Shown in pieces: positions 271 to 22,521 of a DNA stretch of 64,000 nucleotides. The translations under genes and the position numbers were made by a program. A model generated the notes under the pieces. The model ran no database searches and had not been told where the DNA came from. It saw only the letters and a list, made by a program, of their open reading frames with translations. Each line of letters opens with the position of its first letter. The first letter of the stretch is position 1. The DNA is from Firmicutes bacterium M10-2 (GTDB taxonomy: Bacteria; Bacillota_I; Bacilli_A; Erysipelotrichales; Erysipelotrichaceae), in assembly GCA_000403415.2 (NCBI GenBank), contig KE159700.1:1-64000 (forward strand), read 5' to 3'.

Positions 271-1802
<1,532 letters not shown>

Positions 1803-2053
1803 AAGGAGAAAGCGAAGAAACGAGAAAAGGTGTAAAGAGACGTGAGAGAATTTCTATCAAGTTTTCAGGGATGGTCCCTGGAGCTCGATCTTTGAAAACC
1901 GACAGACACAAATTGAAGAAGAGACACAATAGATAAAGAGAAAAGGTCTTGAAAGCAAGTTGTGGAGAAAAAAAGATAAACTGAGAAAAAGAGAAAAACA
2001 GTGAACAGTTTAGAAAGATCTTGAAGAAAGCACAAGAAACAAGAGAACCAACT
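1803..2053 (+). other. 16S-23S spacer, no tRNA gene
   Basis: About 250 bp of purine-rich spacer. It contains the 3' arm of the 16S stem (1850-1872), a hairpin GGGATGG-TCCC at about 1868-1878, and the box GATCTTTGAAAACC near 1889. I looked for tRNA-Ile and tRNA-Ala arms (GGTTCGA, terminal CCA) and found none. Confidence 0.75.
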
Positions 2054-4971
<2,918 letters not shown>

Positions 4972-5052
4972 AGAGCCCGCGACTTGCGAAAGAGACGAAA
5001 GAAGTGTAAGAGAGAAGAGTGGATGTCGGTTTTGAGGGATCGAGCAAAAGAA

Positions 5053-5169
5053 GATCCGGTGACGAAGGCGGGATGGAGACACCTGAATACATTCCGAACT
5101 CAGCAGTTAAGCACCCCAGCGGCGACGATAGTTGGCCTTGCGCCTGCGAAAATAGCACGTTGCCGGGTC
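5053..5169 (+). rRNA. rrf: 5S ribosomal RNA
   Basis: About 117 nt. The ends GATCCGGTGACG and CGTTGCCGGGTC pair as helix I, and the internal ACACCTGAATACATTCCGAACTCAG is the conserved loop region of 5S. It lies about 80 bp after 23S and runs straight into a T-run, as expected for the last gene of an rrn operon. Confidence 0.93.
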
Positions 5170-10580: not shown

Positions 10581-11365
10581 CCTTATTTTTATCTGATGTG
10601 GATGGCACTTTGACAGACGGGAATGGAAGGATTGCCATGCAAGATATCGAACAGATCAAAAAATGGCAGGAAGAAGGAAATTTATTCGGCTTAGTGACAG
10701 GCAGGGATCAAACTTATTGTATGACGTTATTGCGCTTTTATGGTATAACACCGGATTGCTTGATTACCAGCAACGGAGCGAATACTTTTTTTCAAGGAAA
10801 AAATTTTTCGATTGATTCGATTTCGAAAATGCAGACGGACGATCTATTCCAAAAGATTGCACCTTTTCAAAAAGATGTGATCGGATTTGTCACTTTGGAA
10901 AACGGCATGCATTATTTTTACAGCGAGAAAGACAAAAGGATCATGAAGGAAGAACAAGCGCACCTAAAATATTTTGCGGTGGAATTGCTTGAACAAATTA
11001 ATCATTCGGTTCCGAAAATCAGCATCTTTGTACGGGATGCAGCAAAAATGGAGTTTTATCTCAAATGGTTCAAGAAAAATTTTAATGATCTTGATGTGGT
11101 TTCTCCTTCTTATGACTATATTGAGATTTCCCAAAAAGGTTGTCACAAAGCGAAAGCTTTGGATTTTTTGATCGGAAATTTCCATATAGATGAAAATAAG
11201 ATCGGATTTATCGGAGATGGAAGCAATGATGTTCCTTTATTCGAACGTTTAGATCAGACATATGTCATGGCGCATGCGCCAAGTCATATACGATCTTGCG
11301 CGAAAACAGAAGTAGCGAGTGTAAGTGAAGCACTCAAGAAGGAAAGGGAAAGAGAACATGTCTAG
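10577..11365 (+). CDS. Cof-type HAD hydrolase
   Basis: A 262-aa soluble phosphatase of the HAD superfamily, IIB (Cof) subgroup. Motif I is LSDVDGTL with nucleophile Asp7 and acid Asp9; motif II is near LITSNGA; motif IV is GFIGDGSNDVPLF. Cof members dephosphorylate sugar phosphates, nucleotides or cofactor phosphates; the substrate cannot be read from sequence. It overlaps the upstream membrane protein by 4 bp and overlaps the downstream small gene by 8 bp, forming a three-gene operon. Confidence 0.88.
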   Translation: MTLFLSDVDGTLTDGNGRIAMQDIEQIKKWQEEGNLFGLVTGRDQTYCMTLLRFYGITPDCLITSNGANTFFQGKNFSIDSISKMQTDDLFQKIAPFQKDVIGFVTLENGMHYFYSEKDKRIMKEEQAHLKYFAVELLEQINHSVPKISIFVRDAAKMEFYLKWFKKNFNDLDVVSPSYDYIEISQKGCHKAKALDFLIGNFHIDENKIGFIGDGSNDVPLFERLDQTYVMAHAPSHIRSCAKTEVASVSEALKKEREREHV

Positions 11366-14875: not shown

Positions 14876-15307
14876 ATGAAATATGTAGTTATGGTCAGTC
14901 ATGGCGAATTTGCGCCAGGGCTTCACTCAGCTGTAAAAATGATGACAGGCGATCGTGACGATGTATTGTCAACTAGCTTGAAGGCCGATATGAGTGCAGA
15001 TGAATTTGCTGCGAACTTCAAAGAACTTGTGAAAGATCTTAAAGCTGGAGAAGATCAAGTGATCTTGTTAGCGGATATCTTAAGCGGATCTCCGTTTACA
15101 AATGCACTGAGCGTATTGGATGAAAAAGGGATGCTTGAAGATTCGCTCGTGATTGCGGGAATGAATATGCCTTTGGCAATTACTGCTGTTTTAATGAAAG
15201 ACAACTTTGACGATCTGAGCGTATTAAAAGATACATTGCTCAGTGAAGGAAAAGCAGGCCTTACTGAATTTGTCGTTGCCAACAATGACGACGAAGACGA
15301 CCTTTAA
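14876..15307 (+). CDS. PTS mannose-family EIIA component
   Basis: A 143-aa EIIA-Man domain protein, with phospho-His9 in MVSHGEFAPG and the conserved ILLADILSGSPFTNAL segment. The tail is acidic (NNDDEDDL). It starts at ATG 14876, 11 bp after AGGAGGAG. It heads an operon with separate IIB, IIC and IID genes. Separate subunits and the sequences of IIB/IIC/IID are closer to the aga/sor/gam branch than to the ManX-type fusion at 6790, so an amino sugar or polyol is likely, but the substrate is not readable. Confidence 0.93.
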   Translation: MKYVVMVSHGEFAPGLHSAVKMMTGDRDDVLSTSLKADMSADEFAANFKELVKDLKAGEDQVILLADILSGSPFTNALSVLDEKGMLEDSLVIAGMNMPLAITAVLMKDNFDDLSVLKDTLLSEGKAGLTEFVVANNDDEDDL

Positions 15308-15343
15308 AAGAAACACACACAAATTATAATAGGAGGACAGAAA

Positions 15344-15835
15344 ATGATTACTTTTATGCGTGTCGATGACCGTATTATCCACGGTCAGATCATTACTCGT
15401 TGGTCCAAGGAATATCCTTGTGACGGAATTATTGCCGTAAATGATAAAGCGGCAACCACTCCTGTACTTGCTCAATCGTTCAAAGCGAGTACAGATAAAA
15501 AAGTGTTTGTATGGACAAAAGAGCACTTCAAAGAAGTTCAGGAAAAAGTATTGAATTCCCCGAAACGCTACTTCTTGATTACGAAGAATCCTGTGGATAT
15601 GAAAGAAATCTTAGTCGATATGGGATTTGTTCCTAGCGATGTGAAACGTTTGATTATCGGACCTTGCAACGATCGTCCGGGAGCGACAAAACTTGGTCAA
15701 AATCAAAGTATCACGCAAGAAGAAGCAGATGCTCTTGAAGCGATCACAAATGCTGGATACACAGTAGAATTCGCGTTGTTGAAGGAAACTTCAATTGGTG
15801 AATGGCCTAAATTTAGATCTAAATTCGGTTACTAA
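15344..15835 (+). CDS. PTS mannose-family EIIB component
   Basis: A 163-aa EIIB protein. The phospho-His is His13 in RVDDRIIHGQI. The core LAQSFKASTDKKVFVWTKE and the end VEFALLKETSIGEWPKF are typical of the AgaV/SorB-like IIB branch. Cytoplasmic; takes phosphate from the IIA encoded just upstream and gives it to the sugar. AGGAGGAC lies 7 bp before ATG. The 36-bp gap from IIA contains no terminator. Confidence 0.93.
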   Translation: MITFMRVDDRIIHGQIITRWSKEYPCDGIIAVNDKAATTPVLAQSFKASTDKKVFVWTKEHFKEVQEKVLNSPKRYFLITKNPVDMKEILVDMGFVPSDVKRLIIGPCNDRPGATKLGQNQSITQEEADALEAITNAGYTVEFALLKETSIGEWPKFRSKFGY

Positions 15836-15901
15836 AAAGAGATTTTAGCAACTGATTTATAGATAAAATAATAAAACAAGAGTTTAGAAGGAGAGAGTTT
15901 T

Positions 15902-16744
15902 ATGAGTTTATTTCAAGCTATTTTAATTGGTTTGGTTTCTTGTACGGCTGCTTCCACAATCGCTTGTTTGGGAACAACAGTAGGTAACTATACATTAAAT
16001 AGACCTCTTGTTGCTTCGTTAATCGTCGGAATCATTTTAGGAGATATTTCCGGATGTATTTCGATTGGTATCCCAATGCAGGTTATGTGGATTGCGCTCG
16101 TTACGCCGGGTGGTACGGTTGCATCAGATTTGCGTGCAGTTTCTTATATCGGTATCCCATTGGCTTATGTTGGTGTTAAAGCCGCCGGTATCAACCCTGC
16201 AAGTGATGAAGCTTTCCAATTGGCAAGTTCTATTTCCGCGATGACTGGTACGATCGGTATCACGTTATTCTACGGAACAGCTATGATGAACTTGATTTGG
16301 CAACACATTGGTTGGGCACGTTTGGATAAGGGAGATTTCGAGATCGTAGGTAAAGTTGATGCTTTATTCCCATTGATTTCTCACTTCTGCTTGTCTTTCC
16401 TGCCTGTTACTTTGCTTTGCTATTTTGGATCCGGTGCCGTAGAATCTGTATTCAAATCATTGGATGTCAGTGTATGGTACGTTAAAGCGTTGTTGTGCGT
16501 TGGTTCTGTACTTCCTGCAGTAGGTATCGCGATCTTGTTGAAATCTGTTGTTAACAAGACAAGTGATTTGATCTTCTTCCTTCTTGGATTCGTTCTTGCT
16601 GCTGCAATGGGATTGACATTGCTTGCAGCAACAGTTGTCGGTGGTGTATTCGCATTGATCAACTACCAGATGACAATGATCAAGATTGAAGCAAATAAAG
16701 GTGGTACTGCCGCTGTAATGATTGAAGAAGAGGAGGATATTTAA
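15902..16744 (+). CDS. PTS mannose-family EIIC permease
   Basis: A 280-aa polytopic membrane protein with about eight hydrophobic helices and the IIC-Man pattern GNYTLNRPLVASLIVGIILGD and GIPMQVMWIALVTPGG (shortened). It forms the translocation channel with IID. The ribosome site AAGGAGAG precedes ATG by 8 bp. It ends in an acidic stretch (MIEEEEDI) whose codons contain GAGGAGG, the ribosome site for the next gene. Confidence 0.93.
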   Translation: MSLFQAILIGLVSCTAASTIACLGTTVGNYTLNRPLVASLIVGIILGDISGCISIGIPMQVMWIALVTPGGTVASDLRAVSYIGIPLAYVGVKAAGINPASDEAFQLASSISAMTGTIGITLFYGTAMMNLIWQHIGWARLDKGDFEIVGKVDALFPLISHFCLSFLPVTLLCYFGSGAVESVFKSLDVSVWYVKALLCVGSVLPAVGIAILLKSVVNKTSDLIFFLLGFVLAAAMGLTLLAATVVGGVFALINYQMTMIKIEANKGGTAAVMIEEEEDI

Positions 16745-16746
16745 TT

Positions 16747-17562
16747 ATGAAAAAGATTTCTAAGAAAACGTTAAATTCATCCTTCTGGCGTTGGTGGTAC
16801 GGAAACCTGACTTGTTTCTCTCACGAACACATGCAGACATTTGGATACATGTGGGCTATGATTCCTATTTTGAAGGAATTGTATGACACTCATGACGAAC
16901 AAGCACAAAAATTGGAAACATACTATGCGTTCTTCAACACAGAACCACAAATCGGTTGTATTGTTGTCGGTGTAACAGCCGGACTTGAAGAAGCTCGTGC
17001 AAATGGTGCCGAAGGAATCGATGATGAAATGATCAACGGTATCCGTGCCGGTCTGATGGGACCTTTGGCAGGTATCGGTGACTCTTTGATTGTCGGTACA
17101 TATATTCCAATCTTGTTAGGTATTGCCGTTGCTTTAGCTGAAGGTGGATCTGTATTAGGACCAATTTTCTATATTGTTGTATGGAATATTACTTCTACTT
17201 TGTTCCAAAAATTTGTATTTGACAAAGGTTATGCACTTGGTGGATCCGCTGTTGAACTTCTTGTCGGTGAAAAAGCGACTGCGTTCCGTGAATCAGTAAT
17301 CGTTATGGGTCAAGTTATCGTTGGTGCGATGGCTGCATCTTGGGTAAATATTACGACTCCGCTTCAAATTGCCACAAACTCTGAAGGTGAACCGGTAATG
17401 TTGCAAGCGAACTTAGACGGCGCATTCCCTAAAATTCTGACAATGCTCTTTGTAGTATTCTGCTGGTGGCTACAAGCGAAAAAAGGTATGTCGCCTATTA
17501 AGGTGCTCCTTTTGATGGCTGTGATCGCATTCGCAGGATCTTGCATCGGTATTTTAGGATAA
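16747..17562 (+). CDS. PTS mannose-family EIID component
   Basis: A 271-aa IID-Man subunit with the N-terminal SFWRWWYGNLTCFSHEHMQTFGYMWAMIP block (here in parts: WRWWYGNL, HMQTFGYMW) and GLMGPLAGIGDSL, then C-terminal membrane helices. The start follows the IIC stop by 2 bp. A perfect hairpin terminator follows, with a small gene beyond it, so this is the last full-level product of the operon. Confidence 0.93.
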   Translation: MKKISKKTLNSSFWRWWYGNLTCFSHEHMQTFGYMWAMIPILKELYDTHDEQAQKLETYYAFFNTEPQIGCIVVGVTAGLEEARANGAEGIDDEMINGIRAGLMGPLAGIGDSLIVGTYIPILLGIAVALAEGGSVLGPIFYIVVWNITSTLFQKFVFDKGYALGGSAVELLVGEKATAFRESVIVMGQVIVGAMAASWVNITTPLQIATNSEGEPVMLQANLDGAFPKILTMLFVVFCWWLQAKKGMSPIKVLLLMAVIAFAGSCIGILG

Positions 17563-17579
17563 TTAATATTTGTCTGTTT

Positions 17580-17611
17580 GAAGTGAGGACAGCGTGCCTC
17601 ACTTCTTTTCT
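17580..17611 (+). terminator. Internal terminator/attenuator before small membrane gene
   Basis: GAAGTGAGG (17580-17588) pairs perfectly with CCTCACTTC (17597-17605), followed by TTTTCTT. It separates IID from the 106-aa gene, which would be expressed by read-through or its own promoter. Confidence 0.8.
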
Positions 17612-17631
17612 TATCAAAGGAGGGGATATGA

Positions 17632-17952
17632 ATGAAATTATCAAAACGTGAACGGGAAGCTTTAGCTCAATCAATTGCACAGGAAAATGCCATGCTCAAA
17701 CGAGTAGGACATGTAGTACGCAACAGTATTGTTGCTTTAGCTGTGTTCGTATTGTTGTGTGTATGGGGATTTTCCGGAATGCAAGATGCATTCCTGCCGA
17801 ATATTTCTTCCGGTGTACGGAATGTAATCAAATGGGTTGGTGTAATTGGGACAATCGGTTCTTTAATCATGGTTGTGTTTAGTATAACGGCCCGACATAA
17901 CGGAAAGAAAAATCTTTTAAAGAAGATCGACCGATATCAAGGGAAATCATAA
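17632..17952 (+). CDS. Small two-helix membrane protein after PTS
   Basis: A 106-aa protein. A charged N-terminus (KLSKREREALAQSI) precedes two hydrophobic segments at about 30-48 and 65-83, and the C-terminus is basic (KKNLLKKIDRYQGKS). AAAGGAGGGG lies 6 bp before ATG 17632. I do not recognise a family. The PTS context suggests an accessory or regulatory partner of the transporter, but that rests on position only. Confidence 0.7.
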   Translation: MKLSKREREALAQSIAQENAMLKRVGHVVRNSIVALAVFVLLCVWGFSGMQDAFLPNISSGVRNVIKWVGVIGTIGSLIMVVFSITARHNGKKNLLKKIDRYQGKS

Positions 17953-17973
17953 AAAATATCAGTATAACACAAT

Positions 17974-18018
17974 TTCACATTTCTATACCGCAATGCAATA
18001 TAGAGAAAGGCGTATACT
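17974..18018 (+). promoter_or_regulatory. Promoter and upstream box of sRNA candidate 1
   Basis: TATACT (18013-18018) lies 9 bp (start to start) before the conserved GATGAG of the RNA. The -35 position (17990-17995, GCAATG) is far from consensus. A TTCACAT box at 17974-17980 lies exactly 39 bp upstream of the -10; the second copy has the same box at the same distance. This suggests an activator-dependent promoter. Confidence 0.5.
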
Positions 18019-18021
18019 TTC

Positions 18022-18109
18022 GATGAGCCGAATAGAGGCTCACTTCATAATCAAATTCCCTTTCTTAAAACTTTCTTGGAAAAATGACCTCATTTAGGAG
18101 GTCTTTTTC
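18022..18109 (+). ncRNA. Candidate small RNA, copy 1
   Basis: About 88 nt. It opens with a perfect 5-bp hairpin GAGCC..GGCTC with a 7-nt loop (18026-18042). An apparently unpaired 37-nt stretch follows, containing the pyrimidine-rich CCCTTTCTT (18058-18066), which is complementary to Shine-Dalgarno-type sequence. It ends in a terminator: GACCTC (18086-18091), GAGGTC (18098-18103), then T's. The first 63 nt match copy 2 (18268) with two differences, while the terminators differ in sequence but not in design. The architecture resembles multicopy regulatory RNAs such as streptococcal csRNAs; homology is not claimed. Confidence 0.7.
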
Positions 18110-18137
18110 TTTTTTTTTTGAATATAAATTGAATTTT

Positions 18138-18203
18138 TTGACTTTGATTTGAATAATATAAATATTACTTGGGTAAAATCAATTAAAAATATTACTTGAG
18201 TAA
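18138..18203 (+). repeat. Two operator-like dyads before sRNA candidate 2
   Basis: AATATTACTTGGGTAA (18161-18176) and AATATTACTTGAGTAA (18188-18203) are 16-bp direct repeats 27 bp apart. The second contains TTACT..AGTAA inverted arms. A TTGACT at 18138-18143 precedes the first, but without a well-spaced -10. They look like paired regulator sites. They lie 83-98 bp before the RNA start and are absent before copy 1. Confidence 0.45.
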
Positions 18204-18219
18204 GAGAAAAGCACATAAA

Positions 18220-18264
18220 TTCACATAATTAAAACATAATGTGTTGTATACAATTCTCTATATT
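18220..18264 (+). promoter_or_regulatory. Promoter and upstream box of sRNA candidate 2
   Basis: TATATT (18259-18264) is 9 bp (start to start) before the conserved GATGAG. TTCACAT (18220-18226) is 39 bp upstream of the -10, as in copy 1. A second CACAT at 18212 lies one helical turn away. The -35 position (ATAATG) is not consensus. Confidence 0.5.
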
Positions 18265-18267
18265 ATA

Positions 18268-18352
18268 GATGAGCCAAATAGAGGCTCACTTCATAATCAA
18301 ATTCCCTTTCTTAAAACTTTCTTGAAAAAAGGCCTCAACGGGCCTTTTTTCT
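18268..18352 (+). ncRNA. Candidate small RNA, copy 2
   Basis: About 85 nt. The 5' hairpin GAGCC..GGCTC (18271-18288), the unpaired CCCTTTCTT-containing stretch and the sequence up to 18330 match copy 1 with two base differences over 63 nt. It ends in a different terminator: AAAAAAGGCC / GGCCTTTTTT with a 6-nt loop (18325-18350). Conservation of the body with divergence of the terminator stem sequence argues for selection on an RNA rather than a recent duplication alone. No start codon with ribosome site or meaningful frame exists in it. Confidence 0.7.
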
Positions 18353-18397
18353 TTTGTCTATCTAAGAATCATGTAAGTTTTTTTACTTATGGAATCT

Positions 18398-18405
18398 GAT
18401 ATAAT
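18398..18405 (+). promoter_or_regulatory. Extended -10 promoter of glycosyltransferase operon
   Basis: TGATATAAT gives TG-n-TATAAT with TATAAT at 18400-18405. There is no clear -35. The start codon is 26 bp downstream, with GAGGT as ribosome site. Confidence 0.5.
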
Positions 18406-18431: not shown

Positions 18432-19490
18432 ATGGAAGAAAAGAAACTTCGAATCACAATGTATTCAAGTGCAGATAAGGTTGGCGGCCAAGGTGTAGGG
18501 TCCGCTTATTTAGAGCAAGTGGAATTGCTCAAAGAGGAAGCAAATGATCTTTTTGAAATCGCAATTAATGACTGGTTCAAAAAGGCAGATATCAAGCACT
18601 TTCATACGATTGATCCGGCTTTCATGATTCCGATGCTTGATAAAAAAACGGTGAAAATCGCTTATTGCCATTTTTTACCGGATACGGTTATTGATGGAAG
18701 CCTTAATATTCCTTCAGGCCTGCAGCCGATCACCTCACACTATATTATCAATTTTTATAAATTGGCGGATCGACTGGTGGTTGTTAACCCGAGCTTTATT
18801 CCTGATCTTGCCCGTTATGGCATTCCAAAAGAAAAGATCTATTATATTCCGAATTACGTGTCGAAAGATGTTTTTCATCCTTTAGGAATGAAAGACAGAG
18901 AGTCGGAACGTATGAAATATCAAATTCCTCAAGATGCATTTGTGGTTGTCGGTGCCGGACAAGTGCAAACTCGAAAGGGTGTTCTTGATTTTTGCAAGAC
19001 AGCTGAACTTTGTCCTGATATGGAATTTGTATGGGCGGGAGGATTTTCTTTCGGAATCATTACGGACGGATATGAAGAATTGAAGAAACTGATGGAACAT
19101 CCACCGAAAAATGTTCATTTTATCGGCATGGTGGAACGTAGCGAAATGGTAAAAGTATACAATATGGCAGATGTTTTGTTCATGCCAAGTTATAATGAAC
19201 TCTTTCCGATGACGATCCTTGAAGCTGTCAATTTGCATATTCCGCTTGTATTACGTGATTTGGACTTGTATAAAGATATTTTGTTTGGACATTATTTAGC
19301 GGGCCATTCCAATGAGCAGTTTGCCCATATCCTGCAAAGTTTGCACTCGGATGCGACATTATATAAAAAATACGAACAGGAAAGCGCGGATATCAGCAAT
19401 TATTATTCGAAAGAGCACGTTGCGAAGATGTGGAAAGAATTTTATGTGGACGCATACAATGAAAAACAAAAAGAGCTAAAAGAGAAATAA
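18432..19490 (+). CDS. GT4-family glycosyltransferase
   Basis: A 352-aa GT-B enzyme. The N-terminal half starts with an acceptor domain (MYSSADKVGGQGVGSAYLEQV); the C-terminal half carries the nucleotide-sugar site, with VVGAGQVQTRKGVLDF and the EX7E-like MPSYNELFPMTILEAVN. It lacks a signal peptide and probably acts at the inner face of the membrane. In Bacillota, a GT4 next to an LPG-synthase-like membrane protein and another GT4 commonly builds diglucosyl-diacylglycerol, so this is the likely second (disaccharide-forming) enzyme. It is 12 bp ahead of the membrane gene. Confidence 0.85.
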   Translation: MEEKKLRITMYSSADKVGGQGVGSAYLEQVELLKEEANDLFEIAINDWFKKADIKHFHTIDPAFMIPMLDKKTVKIAYCHFLPDTVIDGSLNIPSGLQPITSHYIINFYKLADRLVVVNPSFIPDLARYGIPKEKIYYIPNYVSKDVFHPLGMKDRESERMKYQIPQDAFVVVGAGQVQTRKGVLDFCKTAELCPDMEFVWAGGFSFGIITDGYEELKKLMEHPPKNVHFIGMVERSEMVKVYNMADVLFMPSYNELFPMTILEAVNLHIPLVLRDLDLYKDILFGHYLAGHSNEQFAHILQSLHSDATLYKKYEQESADISNYYSKEHVAKMWKEFYVDAYNEKQKELKEK

Positions 19491-19502
19491 GGGAAGAACG
19501 AT

Positions 19503-20540
19503 ATGAAAAAATCAAGTTATTTATGGAATTTCGTTCTGATTGCTGTTATAACAGCTGCGGCTTTATGGTTCGCTCTTAAAGATAACTATCAAGAAATCAT
19601 TCAGGCTATACAAAAGCTGAATGGAGCCGCTTTAACAATTATTTTGATCTGGGGAATTTTATATACTTGTGTCTGGGGATTGGTTTATGTCGTTCTTGGT
19701 CGAAAATTTAAGAAAAATTATTCTTTATGGAGCGGAATTCTTGTTGCGTTTACTGGCACTTTTTTTTCCGGAATCACACCATCTGCGACAGGAGGACAAT
19801 TCGGACAGGCATATATATTAAAAAAACAAGGAATCTCTTATAGTGATGGCGCTTCGATCTTATGGGCTGATTTCATCATTTATCAAACAACCATGATGAT
19901 CTATGTGACCATCTTGTTTTGTATGAAATTTTTTACATATTCTCGTCAATCCATGTGGTTTAATTTAGTGCTTGCAGGCTATGTTGTCAATTTTGTGGTG
20001 ATTTTCGGATTGTATACTATGGCTCTTTTTCCGAAAGCGTACATTCACTTGTCGCAGTGGGGAGTAAAAGTATTATCCAAATTGCATATTTTGAAGCATC
20101 CGGAGAAAACTTTGGAATCTTGGACGCTTCAAATGACTTCTTTTACGACTGAAATAAAAAAACTTTCAAAAGATAAATTGGCAATCGTTGAATGTATAGG
20201 AATCAACTTTGTACGATTGACTATGTTGTATGCCCTTCCTTTTGTGGTTGCCCGTCTGTTGAATATTCCGCTTGCTTTCGATCAATTAATTGATGTAATC
20301 GCTTTAAGCTCATTTGTGACCATGGCAAATAGCTTTATTCCGATTCCGGGTGCGAGTGGAGGAACAGAAATGATGTTTGCGATTTTGTTCACTCCTTTAA
20401 TGAAAAAGCTGACCAATGCGGTATTGATCTTATGGCGTGTATCTACGTATCATATTATATTGATTGTCGGAGGTATTTTATTCATGATCGCAAAAGCGTA
20501 TTATGATAGAAGAGATGCGAACATACAGAAAGGAACGTGA
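19503..20540 (+). CDS. LPG-synthase-TM (UPF0104/MprF flippase-like) membrane protein
   Basis: A 345-aa protein with about eight transmembrane segments. The motifs FFSGITPSATGGQFGQAYILKKQG and IPIPGASGGTEMMF (in parts) are those of the N-terminal flippase domain of MprF, here without a catalytic domain. It probably moves or handles glycolipids made by the flanking glycosyltransferases. The start at ATG 19503 has GGGAAGAACG upstream. Its end is 7 bp before the next gene, so the three form one operon. Confidence 0.87.
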   Translation: MKKSSYLWNFVLIAVITAAALWFALKDNYQEIIQAIQKLNGAALTIILIWGILYTCVWGLVYVVLGRKFKKNYSLWSGILVAFTGTFFSGITPSATGGQFGQAYILKKQGISYSDGASILWADFIIYQTTMMIYVTILFCMKFFTYSRQSMWFNLVLAGYVVNFVVIFGLYTMALFPKAYIHLSQWGVKVLSKLHILKHPEKTLESWTLQMTSFTTEIKKLSKDKLAIVECIGINFVRLTMLYALPFVVARLLNIPLAFDQLIDVIALSSFVTMANSFIPIPGASGGTEMMFAILFTPLMKKLTNAVLILWRVSTYHIILIVGGILFMIAKAYYDRRDANIQKGT

Positions 20541-20547
20541 ATGAAAC

Positions 20548-22521
20548 ATGAGAATAGGAATTTTCACCGATTCATATCTTCCGGATATCAACGGTGTGGT
20601 AACGAGTGTCGTCACTTTGAAAAAGGCACTTGAGCAACTTGGCCACACCGTCTTTATTATTTCGAATCATCAAGGATCGAAAGTCATCATGAATGATAAA
20701 GAAAAAATTTTGCGTTTGCCGGGGGTTGAACTTAAACGGTTGTATGGGTATACGATGAGTAGTCCAATCAACTTTGCGATGGATTATATCGAAGATATGA
20801 ACCTCGATGTCATCCATACGCAACAAGAGTTCGGCGTGTCGCTTTATGGCCGGCAAATGGCTAAGGAACTCGGAATCCCACAAGTATATACGTATCATAC
20901 AATGTATGCGGATTATACCCATTATATTAATCCGTTTGATTTTGAGCGAATTGATAAGGCCGGCAAATGGGTCGTTAAAAATTTTTCAAAAATCATGGGC
21001 AATAGTGTACAGGCAGTAATCGCTCCAAGCCAAAAAACAAAAACGGTATTAGAGGGCTATGGCGTGAAAGCACCAATTTATGTTGTGCCGACAGGTCTTG
21101 ATCTTGATGCGTTCAAAGAAGATCAGATCGATTGGACATTTGCTAAATCACTTCGAGAAGGATTGAACTTGAAAGAAAATGATCATGTACTGGTATTTGT
21201 CGGCCGTTTGGCAAAGGAAAAGTCGCTCGAAATGCCGATCAAAGCAATTGCCCGATCAAATGATGAGAAACTGCATCTTGTCGTGGTCGGCTCCGGAACC
21301 GATGAAGATTACTTTAAACAAATTGCCCAAGACAATCATGTTCAAGATCGCGTACACTTTGTCGGAAAGGTTCCAAGAGAACATATTCCGTATTATTACG
21401 TGGCTTTTGACGGATTTGTTTCGGCCTCTCTTTCGGAAACCCAAGGTTTGACATATATTGAAGCACTTGCCAGCGGGTTGCCGGTATTCGGACGTCGGGA
21501 TGAAGTCCTTTATGATCTTGTCGAGGAGGGACGCTCCGGATATTATTTTGATTCAGCTGAAGAACTCGTAGAAAAGATTGACCGATTCTTTTCAAAAGAT
21601 AAACAGGAACGGGAACAGGAAAGTTTATATTGCCGTCAAAAGGTTGCGCCATATTCAAAGGAAATTTTCGGACAGAAGATCCTTGCGGTCTATCAGCAGG
21701 CAATCGATGATTACAGTCATACGTTTGAAGTTATCCGCATTAAGATGAAAGATGATTTTGTAGAGCTGACCTTGGAAAGAGAAAGCGATGATGAACCAAT
21801 CAAGCTTCTTGTTCCACTTGATGATTTTTTCGAACTGAAGATCGCACTGCATACGAAATTAGATGCATATCTGATTTCAAGCTATTTGGATCTTCAGGAA
21901 TTTTATTATGCGTATTCTTTAATTAAGAAAAAAGTTCTCAGCAAAGATATGACATGTTTCGAAGTTCGGACGTACTTACGTCATCATTTCGATCTTGATC
22001 ATGCCAAGATCGAACAATTAGTTAGTGAACTGTGCAAAAGACATTGGCTGGACGATCAAAAATACGCATATGAAAAAAGTGCATATTGGCACCAGATGGG
22101 ACATTCGAAAAAATCAATCACGAATAAATTGATGAAGGTTGGGATCCATTCGGAATTGATTGAAAATGCTTTAAATGAACTGGATGATTCGATTGAACTG
22201 GCAAATGCCAAAGCTTTGGCAGAACGGGTAAAAAATACATTTAAGATGCAGTCGTCACGTTTGAAAAGAAAAAATGTGATCCACAAACTGGTCACAAAAG
22301 GCTATTCGGTCGATATTGCAAATTCAGCACTGGATGAGATTGATCTTGAAAACGATGACGAGCAGGCGTGTCGCAACGCGCTTAAGAAGGCATTACGTTT
22401 ATATTCGTCGCTTGACGAAGAAAAAAGAAAAACCAAGATCAAAGAATATTGTTTGCGAAAAGGTTTTTCGAATGGCGAAATTGAACAACAATTAGAAATG
22501 AGTGAAGAGTTTGAAGATTAA
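20548..22521 (+). CDS. GT4 glycosyltransferase fused to a full-length RecX domain
   Basis: A 657-aa single reading frame. Residues 1-390 are a GT-B glycosyltransferase like diacylglycerol alpha-glucosyltransferases: GIFTDSYLPDINGVVTSV at the start, FVGRLAKEKSLEMPI and the EX7E segment SETQGLTYIEALASG. Residues about 393-657 match RecX throughout: the N-terminal beta region (IRIKMKDDFVELTLERE), the helical repeats EFYYAYSLIKKKVLSKDMTCFEVRTYL, WLDDQKYAYEKSAYWHQMGHSKKSI (in parts) and further degenerate three-helix repeats. RecX binds RecA filaments. No stop, ribosome site or frameshift separates the two. It overlaps the following YhaM gene by 20 bp. Confidence 0.85.
   Translation: MRIGIFTDSYLPDINGVVTSVVTLKKALEQLGHTVFIISNHQGSKVIMNDKEKILRLPGVELKRLYGYTMSSPINFAMDYIEDMNLDVIHTQQEFGVSLYGRQMAKELGIPQVYTYHTMYADYTHYINPFDFERIDKAGKWVVKNFSKIMGNSVQAVIAPSQKTKTVLEGYGVKAPIYVVPTGLDLDAFKEDQIDWTFAKSLREGLNLKENDHVLVFVGRLAKEKSLEMPIKAIARSNDEKLHLVVVGSGTDEDYFKQIAQDNHVQDRVHFVGKVPREHIPYYYVAFDGFVSASLSETQGLTYIEALASGLPVFGRRDEVLYDLVEEGRSGYYFDSAEELVEKIDRFFSKDKQEREQESLYCRQKVAPYSKEIFGQKILAVYQQAIDDYSHTFEVIRIKMKDDFVELTLERESDDEPIKLLVPLDDFFELKIALHTKLDAYLISSYLDLQEFYYAYSLIKKKVLSKDMTCFEVRTYLRHHFDLDHAKIEQLVSELCKRHWLDDQKYAYEKSAYWHQMGHSKKSITNKLMKVGIHSELIENALNELDDSIELANAKALAERVKNTFKMQSSRLKRKNVIHKLVTKGYSVDIANSALDEIDLENDDEQACRNALKKALRLYSSLDEEKRKTKIKEYCLRKGFSNGEIEQQLEMSEEFED

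Follow-up and report, generated by a model that had tools for sequence, protein, structure and literature searches.

Two almost identical stretches of DNA lie between a sugar phosphotransferase (PTS) operon and a glycolipid-type operon of Firmicutes bacterium M10-2, and raise the question of what they encode and which signal calls on them. In the window, i.e. the whole analysed stretch of 64,000 nucleotides, positions 18022–18084 and 18268–18330 agree in 61 of 63 bases (mismatches at 18030 and 18079), beyond which the twins part into terminators of unlike sequence, detected at 18086–18103 and 18324–18351, both with a U-run; shuffles give a mean of 0.2 such sites. A preliminary description had read from the bases the 61/63 identity with individual terminators, a 5-bp 5′ hairpin (GAGCC/GGCTC), TATAyT at equal offset, TTCACAT exactly 39 bp before both −10 elements, a poor −35 and the place between the two operons. 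Base comparison, terminator scan and the Pfam domains of both neighbours reproduce this picture (Table 1); the hairpin gains one more pair (TGAGCC/GGCTCA), and the promoter scan finds no −35/−10 pair at either twin promoter. The twin genes are presumably transcribed as small RNAs (sRNAs).

Table 1. Features of the twin genes and their neighbours (positions of the window).
Feature	Position	Strand	Remarks
Activator box, copy A, TAACACAATTTCACAT	17965..17980	+	direct repeat (period 10 bp) with degenerate first unit; consensus of 57 sites, family-wide pattern
TTCACAT, copy A	17974-17980		start 39 bp before -10
-10, copy A, TATACT	18013..18018	+	
sRNA, copy A (type A)	18022..18119	+	5′ limit approximate; extends through the U-run
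5′ hairpin, copy A, TGAGCC-GAATAGA-GGCTCA	18024..18042	+	fold; covariation, 48 copies
Unpaired conserved core, copy A	18041..18078	+	18043-18066 complementary to SD and AUG-AAG
Intrinsic terminator, copy A	18078..18119	+	
Activator box, copy B, GCACATAAATTCACAT	18211..18226	+	
TTCACAT, copy B	18220-18226		start 39 bp before -10
-10, copy B, TATATT	18259..18264	+	
sRNA, copy B (type A)	18268..18355	+	
5′ hairpin, copy B, TGAGCC-AAATAGA-GGCTCA	18270..18288	+	fold; covariation
Unpaired conserved core, copy B	18287..18324	+	
Intrinsic terminator, copy B	18324..18355	+	unlike that of copy A in sequence
Extended -10, TGATATAAT	18397..18405	+	predicted from sequence for the downstream glycosyltransferase gene
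Upstream neighbour: mannose-family PTS EIIA, EIIB, EIIC, EIID and conserved 106-aa protein	14876..17952	+	Pfam; synteny with sRNA in several genera
Downstream neighbour: glycosyltransferase, LPG_synthase_TM protein, glycosyltransferase-RecX fusion (glycolipid-type operon)	18432..22521	+	Pfam; synteny

The surroundings show some peculiarities of their own. The 106-aa protein encoded after EIID (17632–17952) has no Pfam match and keeps the same place in the PTS operon of many genera. At 20548–22521 a single ORF of 657 aa joins a glycosyltransferase (GT4/GT1 domains) to RecX helical domains; the glycosyltransferase gene adjoins the sRNA in other genera too. The window further carries a complete rRNA operon (16S, 23S, 5S; 271–5168) and, over its whole 64 kb, zero tRNA genes.

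For a scan of the order (316 genomes), hairpin and core were made into a covariance model with the terminator left out. With E values of 0.01 or better, 37 genomes match, and the 24 genomes from 13 genera with matches at E better than 1e-6 all belong to one Erysipelotrichaceae family; a search of this kind had been suggested in the preliminary description. A single weak, borderline match in a sister-family genome (G055), where TTCACAT upstream and the terminator are kept, may be a distant homologue. The weak matches outside the family are mostly coding or chance and were discarded. This genome holds eight copies of the RNA, termed type A, i.e. six beyond the twins, and the congener Erysipelotrichaceae bacterium OPF54 (G001) nine covariance-model matches, two of them within the second copy of a duplicated region. 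In the latter genome the sRNA region is present twice (L042 and L043); the two lie ca. 114 kb from each other and do not differ in promoter or RNA sequence, reflecting a duplication or an assembly artefact. In G002, of the same genus by its label, the sRNA, the box and the glmM-linked regulator candidate (see below) were all not found; the genome is possibly mislabelled or very divergent.

In nearly all homologues a 5′ hairpin with a covarying stem is followed by an unpaired core that hardly varies, CACUUCAUAAUCAAAUUCCCUUUCUUAAAACUUUCUUG, and by a terminator. Stems without compensatory changes, which had been named beforehand as speaking against the idea, were not what we found. In 48 aligned copies, fitted to the covariance model, which somewhat favours covariation, four of the six stem pairs are changed on both sides (25 such cells vs 7.4 in shuffles) with a covariation score of 0.230 compared to 0.081 for shuffled alignments, and slid versions of the stem fail. 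The compensated pairs are legible in the sequences themselves (GAGCC/GGCTC, GAGCT/AGCTC, GAGTT/AACTC, TGACC/GGTCA). Loops and terminators vary freely in sequence, while CUUCAUAAUCAAAUUCCCUUUCUU is nearly unchanged across genera. Since conservation thus resides mostly in unpaired sequence, next to a stem kept by compensation, base pairing in trans is suggested. The reverse complement of the core, AAGAAAGGGAAUUUGAUUAUGAAG, corresponds to a Shine-Dalgarno (SD) sequence followed, at a natural spacing, by an AUG-AAG start. The preliminary description had recognized a long unpaired stretch able to pair with ribosome sites, and had missed that it covers the start codon as well (anti-AUG). Such a core fits the blocking of translation starts, and repression would be the expected outcome. 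Rfam contains no family matching the twin RNAs, in agreement with the earlier statement that their sequence was not recognized. By sequence comparison they are members of an uncatalogued sRNA family with a conserved core.

Most genera have one type A gene with the mannose-family PTS operon, or a remnant of EIIA, on one side and the glycolipid-type operon on the other; the latter is the commonest neighbour of the sRNA across genera. This genome and that of the congener carry further copies at unrelated genes, several of which occupy corresponding places in both species, namely by a NUDIX-like/MFS-like pair, an RsmD-like gene and a gene for a 475–477-aa protein (named by eye from sequence). Multiple copies in two species, two of them close to a repeated ORF that the data show masked, might be taken as signs of a mobile or repetitive DNA element devoid of RNA function. 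We regard this as extremely improbable in view of terminators that differ between copies with an identical core, covarying stems, positions kept between species and genera, and conserved promoters.

The RNAs might also act mainly by binding a protein as a sponge, or as cis leaders of the next gene, rather than by pairing with mRNAs. The length of the conserved unpaired stretch and the frequent presence of the same glycosyltransferase downstream would be in favour. However, the copies precede many unrelated genes or genes on the opposite strand and each RNA ends in its own terminator. The glycosyltransferase gene has its own predicted extended −10 and, therefore, copy B should not be its leader. 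Neither sponge nor leader would explain a core exactly complementary to a ribosome-binding site together with its start codon, or other RNAs behind the same promoter box that differ in their anti-SD core (see below). This explanation is accordingly considered improbable, and we keep to sRNAs pairing with mRNAs in trans.

The promoter box, which the preliminary description had reduced to TTCACAT, is a direct repeat with 10/11-bp period, TCACAta..TTTCACAta.....ACATA, whose TTCACA lies 39 bp upstream of the −10. The copies at the PTS/glycolipid locus read TCACAta-N3-TTCACAta with a third ACATA 11 bp further, and the consensus of 57 sites is TTTCACA. A repeat period of 10–11 bp is as bound by OmpR-family regulators. 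When motif and spacing were searched together, as had been advised, TCACANNNNTTCACA-N31-35-TANNNT was detected in 135 of the 273 genomes of the family, compared to ca. 20 matches in all for a reversed-pattern control. Most box sites are followed by 110–220 nt without a gene, which instead contain an RNA-like unit of type A, B or C. The type B core CUCUCUCC and the type C core UUCUAUCCCC are both anti-SD and stand behind the same promoter; neither type has an Rfam match in the loci searched. An anti-SD motif followed by a terminator is present at 39 of 55 distinct box sites among the fetched loci, a sample enriched for type A, vs 6.3% at random positions. Within this genome, two type A genes carry the box, as do a type B gene (C4:33668) and a type C gene (C1:479552). 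As judged from the sequences, the shared box serves at least two sRNA types besides type A, and the predicted regulon is far larger than the twin pair.

Six of the eight type A copies in this genome are found under a second, unrelated promoter, another point absent from the preliminary description. It approximates AGCAT..ATTGG-N17-TGgTTTAATA, is conserved over two species (L039, L040 and L041 in this genome, G000; L044–L047 in G001), and similar motifs occur in the genera g4 and g65. The same RNA is thus apparently wired to at least two promoter types.

Which regulator reads the box? PhoP-type boxes resemble TTCACA. In Bacillus, the CssR box TTTTCACA is positioned upstream of the −35 of htrA and htrB (PMC6749698), and the promoter box described here, with its consensus TTTCACA from 57 sites, matches it. 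Of 13 genomes, 4 have [AT]TCACA in the htrA promoter 38–40 bp upstream of the −10, mostly as a half-site only; elsewhere in these promoters it occurs at 3 of 818 positions, and it occurs in 0 of 20000 shuffles; among the 13 htrA promoters examined, htrA of this genus has no box at the right place. The same box promoter also precedes a gene reading as ftsH in some genomes of the genus g32. In L153 and L167 of that genus the TTCACA box shares bases with a CIRCE-like element (TTAGCACTC...GTGCTAAA) before the ftsH-like gene.

G079, a genome that uses the box, encodes three OmpR-type regulators: a PhoB-like one whose gene adjoins a PhoU-like gene, another encoded next to glmM, and a third one. The glmM-linked one is nearest to the CssR sequence taken as reference, with 46% identity vs 36% and 28% for the others, which is a lead rather than proof of membership; NCBIfam yielded no CssR model among the matches of the regulators. 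Its DNA-binding domain is nearly invariant across genera. It is found in 248 of the 273 family genomes, including genomes without box matches, and because it is near-universal its distribution does not single it out as the box reader; no box was seen at its own operon. A response regulator and a kinase directly follow glmM in L263, L257, L259, L266, L267, L269 and L270, and the last 60 residues of the regulator are identical in seven genomes.

The same trans-acting anti-SD sRNAs could be placed under another OmpR-family regulator, since 10–11 bp direct repeats suit any member of that family. Phosphate starvation, sensed via PhoP/PhoB, would suit the neighbouring glycolipid operon, and the PhoB-like regulator with PhoU of G079 and the likeness of PhoP-type boxes to TTCACA point in the same direction, yet no box lies near the PhoU-PhoB operon of that genome. 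For WalR speaks the type B sRNA gene back to back with ftsX-pcsB, but the box points away from ftsX. In this arrangement, seen in L128, L121 and L138 from three species, the type B RNA has a CUCUCUCCU core next to ftsX-pcsB-like genes. PhoP and then WalR, the latter considered owing to ftsX beside type B, were demoted on account of this orientation and of the box at ftsH and, largely as a half-site, at some htrA genes, which argues against other OmpR-family readers in general, as does the published CssR box TTTTCACA (PMC6749698). We rate such a reader as possible, though rather unlikely, and tentatively assign the box to the glmM-linked CssR-like regulator, which probably reads it.

Target predictions for type A gave a less distinct picture. 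Within three mismatches, AAGAAAGGGAATTTGATTATGAA matches only the sRNA loci themselves, so far as exact antisense targets are concerned, and a 19-mer search in eight genomes revealed no consistent target. Over 655 gene starts (ca. 0.9 Mb, about a third of this genome) the type A core reaches a mean of −12.5 kcal/mol vs −11.1 kcal/mol for shuffled cores. The best site among them, at −25.2 kcal/mol, belongs to a MatE transporter gene at C1:255296 (AAAAGAAAGGGAATAGTTATGAAAG), whose ribosome-binding site matches AAGAAAGGGAAT and AUGAA. The site is partly kept in the congener (GAAAGGGAAGATCAAAATGAAA, GAAAGGGAA...AUGAAA; lowest 1% of shuffled cores) and mostly not kept in other genera, being conserved within the genus only; the MatE transporter is a candidate target in the sense of a lead. 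The target proposed earlier, before the gene at 11358, did not stand out, its duplex of −17.9 kcal/mol ranking about 13th of 107 gene starts. A preference for membrane proteins among the predicted targets is weak (p = 0.014, one of six tests). Hfq (PF17209) was not found in any of the nine sRNA-carrying genomes searched, and control genomes behaved as expected.

In construction the twins resemble the streptococcal csRNAs of the CiaRH system (RF02379), which are likewise multicopy, ca. 90 nt long, transcribed from promoters with direct repeats of an OmpR-family regulator and found in organisms without Hfq, and in which an unpaired region between 5′ stem-loop and terminator is complementary to SD and AUG (PMC3091779). 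htrA, too, is regulated by CiaR (PMC10197876). In contrast to the CiaR box TTTAAG-N5-TTTAAG, located 10 bp before the −10 (PMC3091779), the TTCACA repeats lie ca. 39 bp before it; core and lineage are different as well, and the twins score 18.4 and 18.8 bits against a gathering threshold of 57. Listeria LhrC1-5 (LisRK; RF00616) are also multicopy, place a UCCC-type motif over the SD, have an activating sequence upstream of −53 and are induced by an envelope-stress two-component system (PMC4132741). LhrC, however, contains three CU-rich UCCC sites (PMC4132741) and binds Hfq, whereas the core described here has one UUCCCUUU site plus the anti-AUG part in genomes with no Hfq found; the score is 18 bits against a threshold of 110. 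The twin RNAs would work like csRNAs and LhrC and are by membership neither, differing in Rfam score, box and motif. With the Bacillus subtilis CssRS regulon the system shares the TTTTCACA-type box, and it may share a regulator of similar sequence and htrA as target (half-site in most of 4 of 13 promoters), but the candidate regulator gene is placed beside glmM. In the open-access literature we found neither an sRNA under CssRS nor a paper on sRNAs of this bacterial family. The sRNA family is new, and the regulon looks new and of a known kind; homologous riboregulators controlled by an activator box, as postulated in the preliminary description, are supported by the comparative evidence.

On this basis we propose the following scenario, which we hold to be rather probable. 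The twin genes would encode trans-acting sRNAs of ca. 90 nt and belong to a regulon of the csRNA kind, commanded by a secretion-stress system of CssRS type. Its response regulator would be an OmpR-family protein, most likely the CssR-like one beside glmM; in answer to secretion or envelope stress it would bind TCACAta-N3-TTCACAta-N5-ACATA and activate a promoter without a good −35. Subsequently, the unpaired core would pair with AAGAAAGGGAA-type SD sequences and AUG-AAR start codons and thereby shield a set of mRNAs from ribosomes, with no need of Hfq. As the box would also drive sRNA types with other anti-SD cores, one stress signal might repress several mRNA sets, and the extra copies with the second promoter type might allow another signal to use the same RNA. 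We see about an even chance that, throughout the bacterial family, a CssRS-type system has in its regulon at least three sRNA families of the anti-SD/anti-AUG kind which are unrelated to each other, with no detectable Hfq.

If true, CiaRH/csRNA and LisRK/LhrC would be joined by another lineage whose envelope-stress two-component system drives redundant sRNAs that block translation, and this would speak for a general design or for convergent evolution. Two questions become accessible to experiment: by what means sRNAs antisense to ribosome-binding sites reach their targets in the absence of Hfq, and whether anti-SD sRNAs are repeatedly recruited by envelope-stress systems. The core, as complement of a whole ribosome-binding site and start codon, would offer a clean model for generic targeting of translation starts, and these poorly studied gut bacteria would gain a post-transcriptional stress network that is absent from Rfam and was read from sequence alone.
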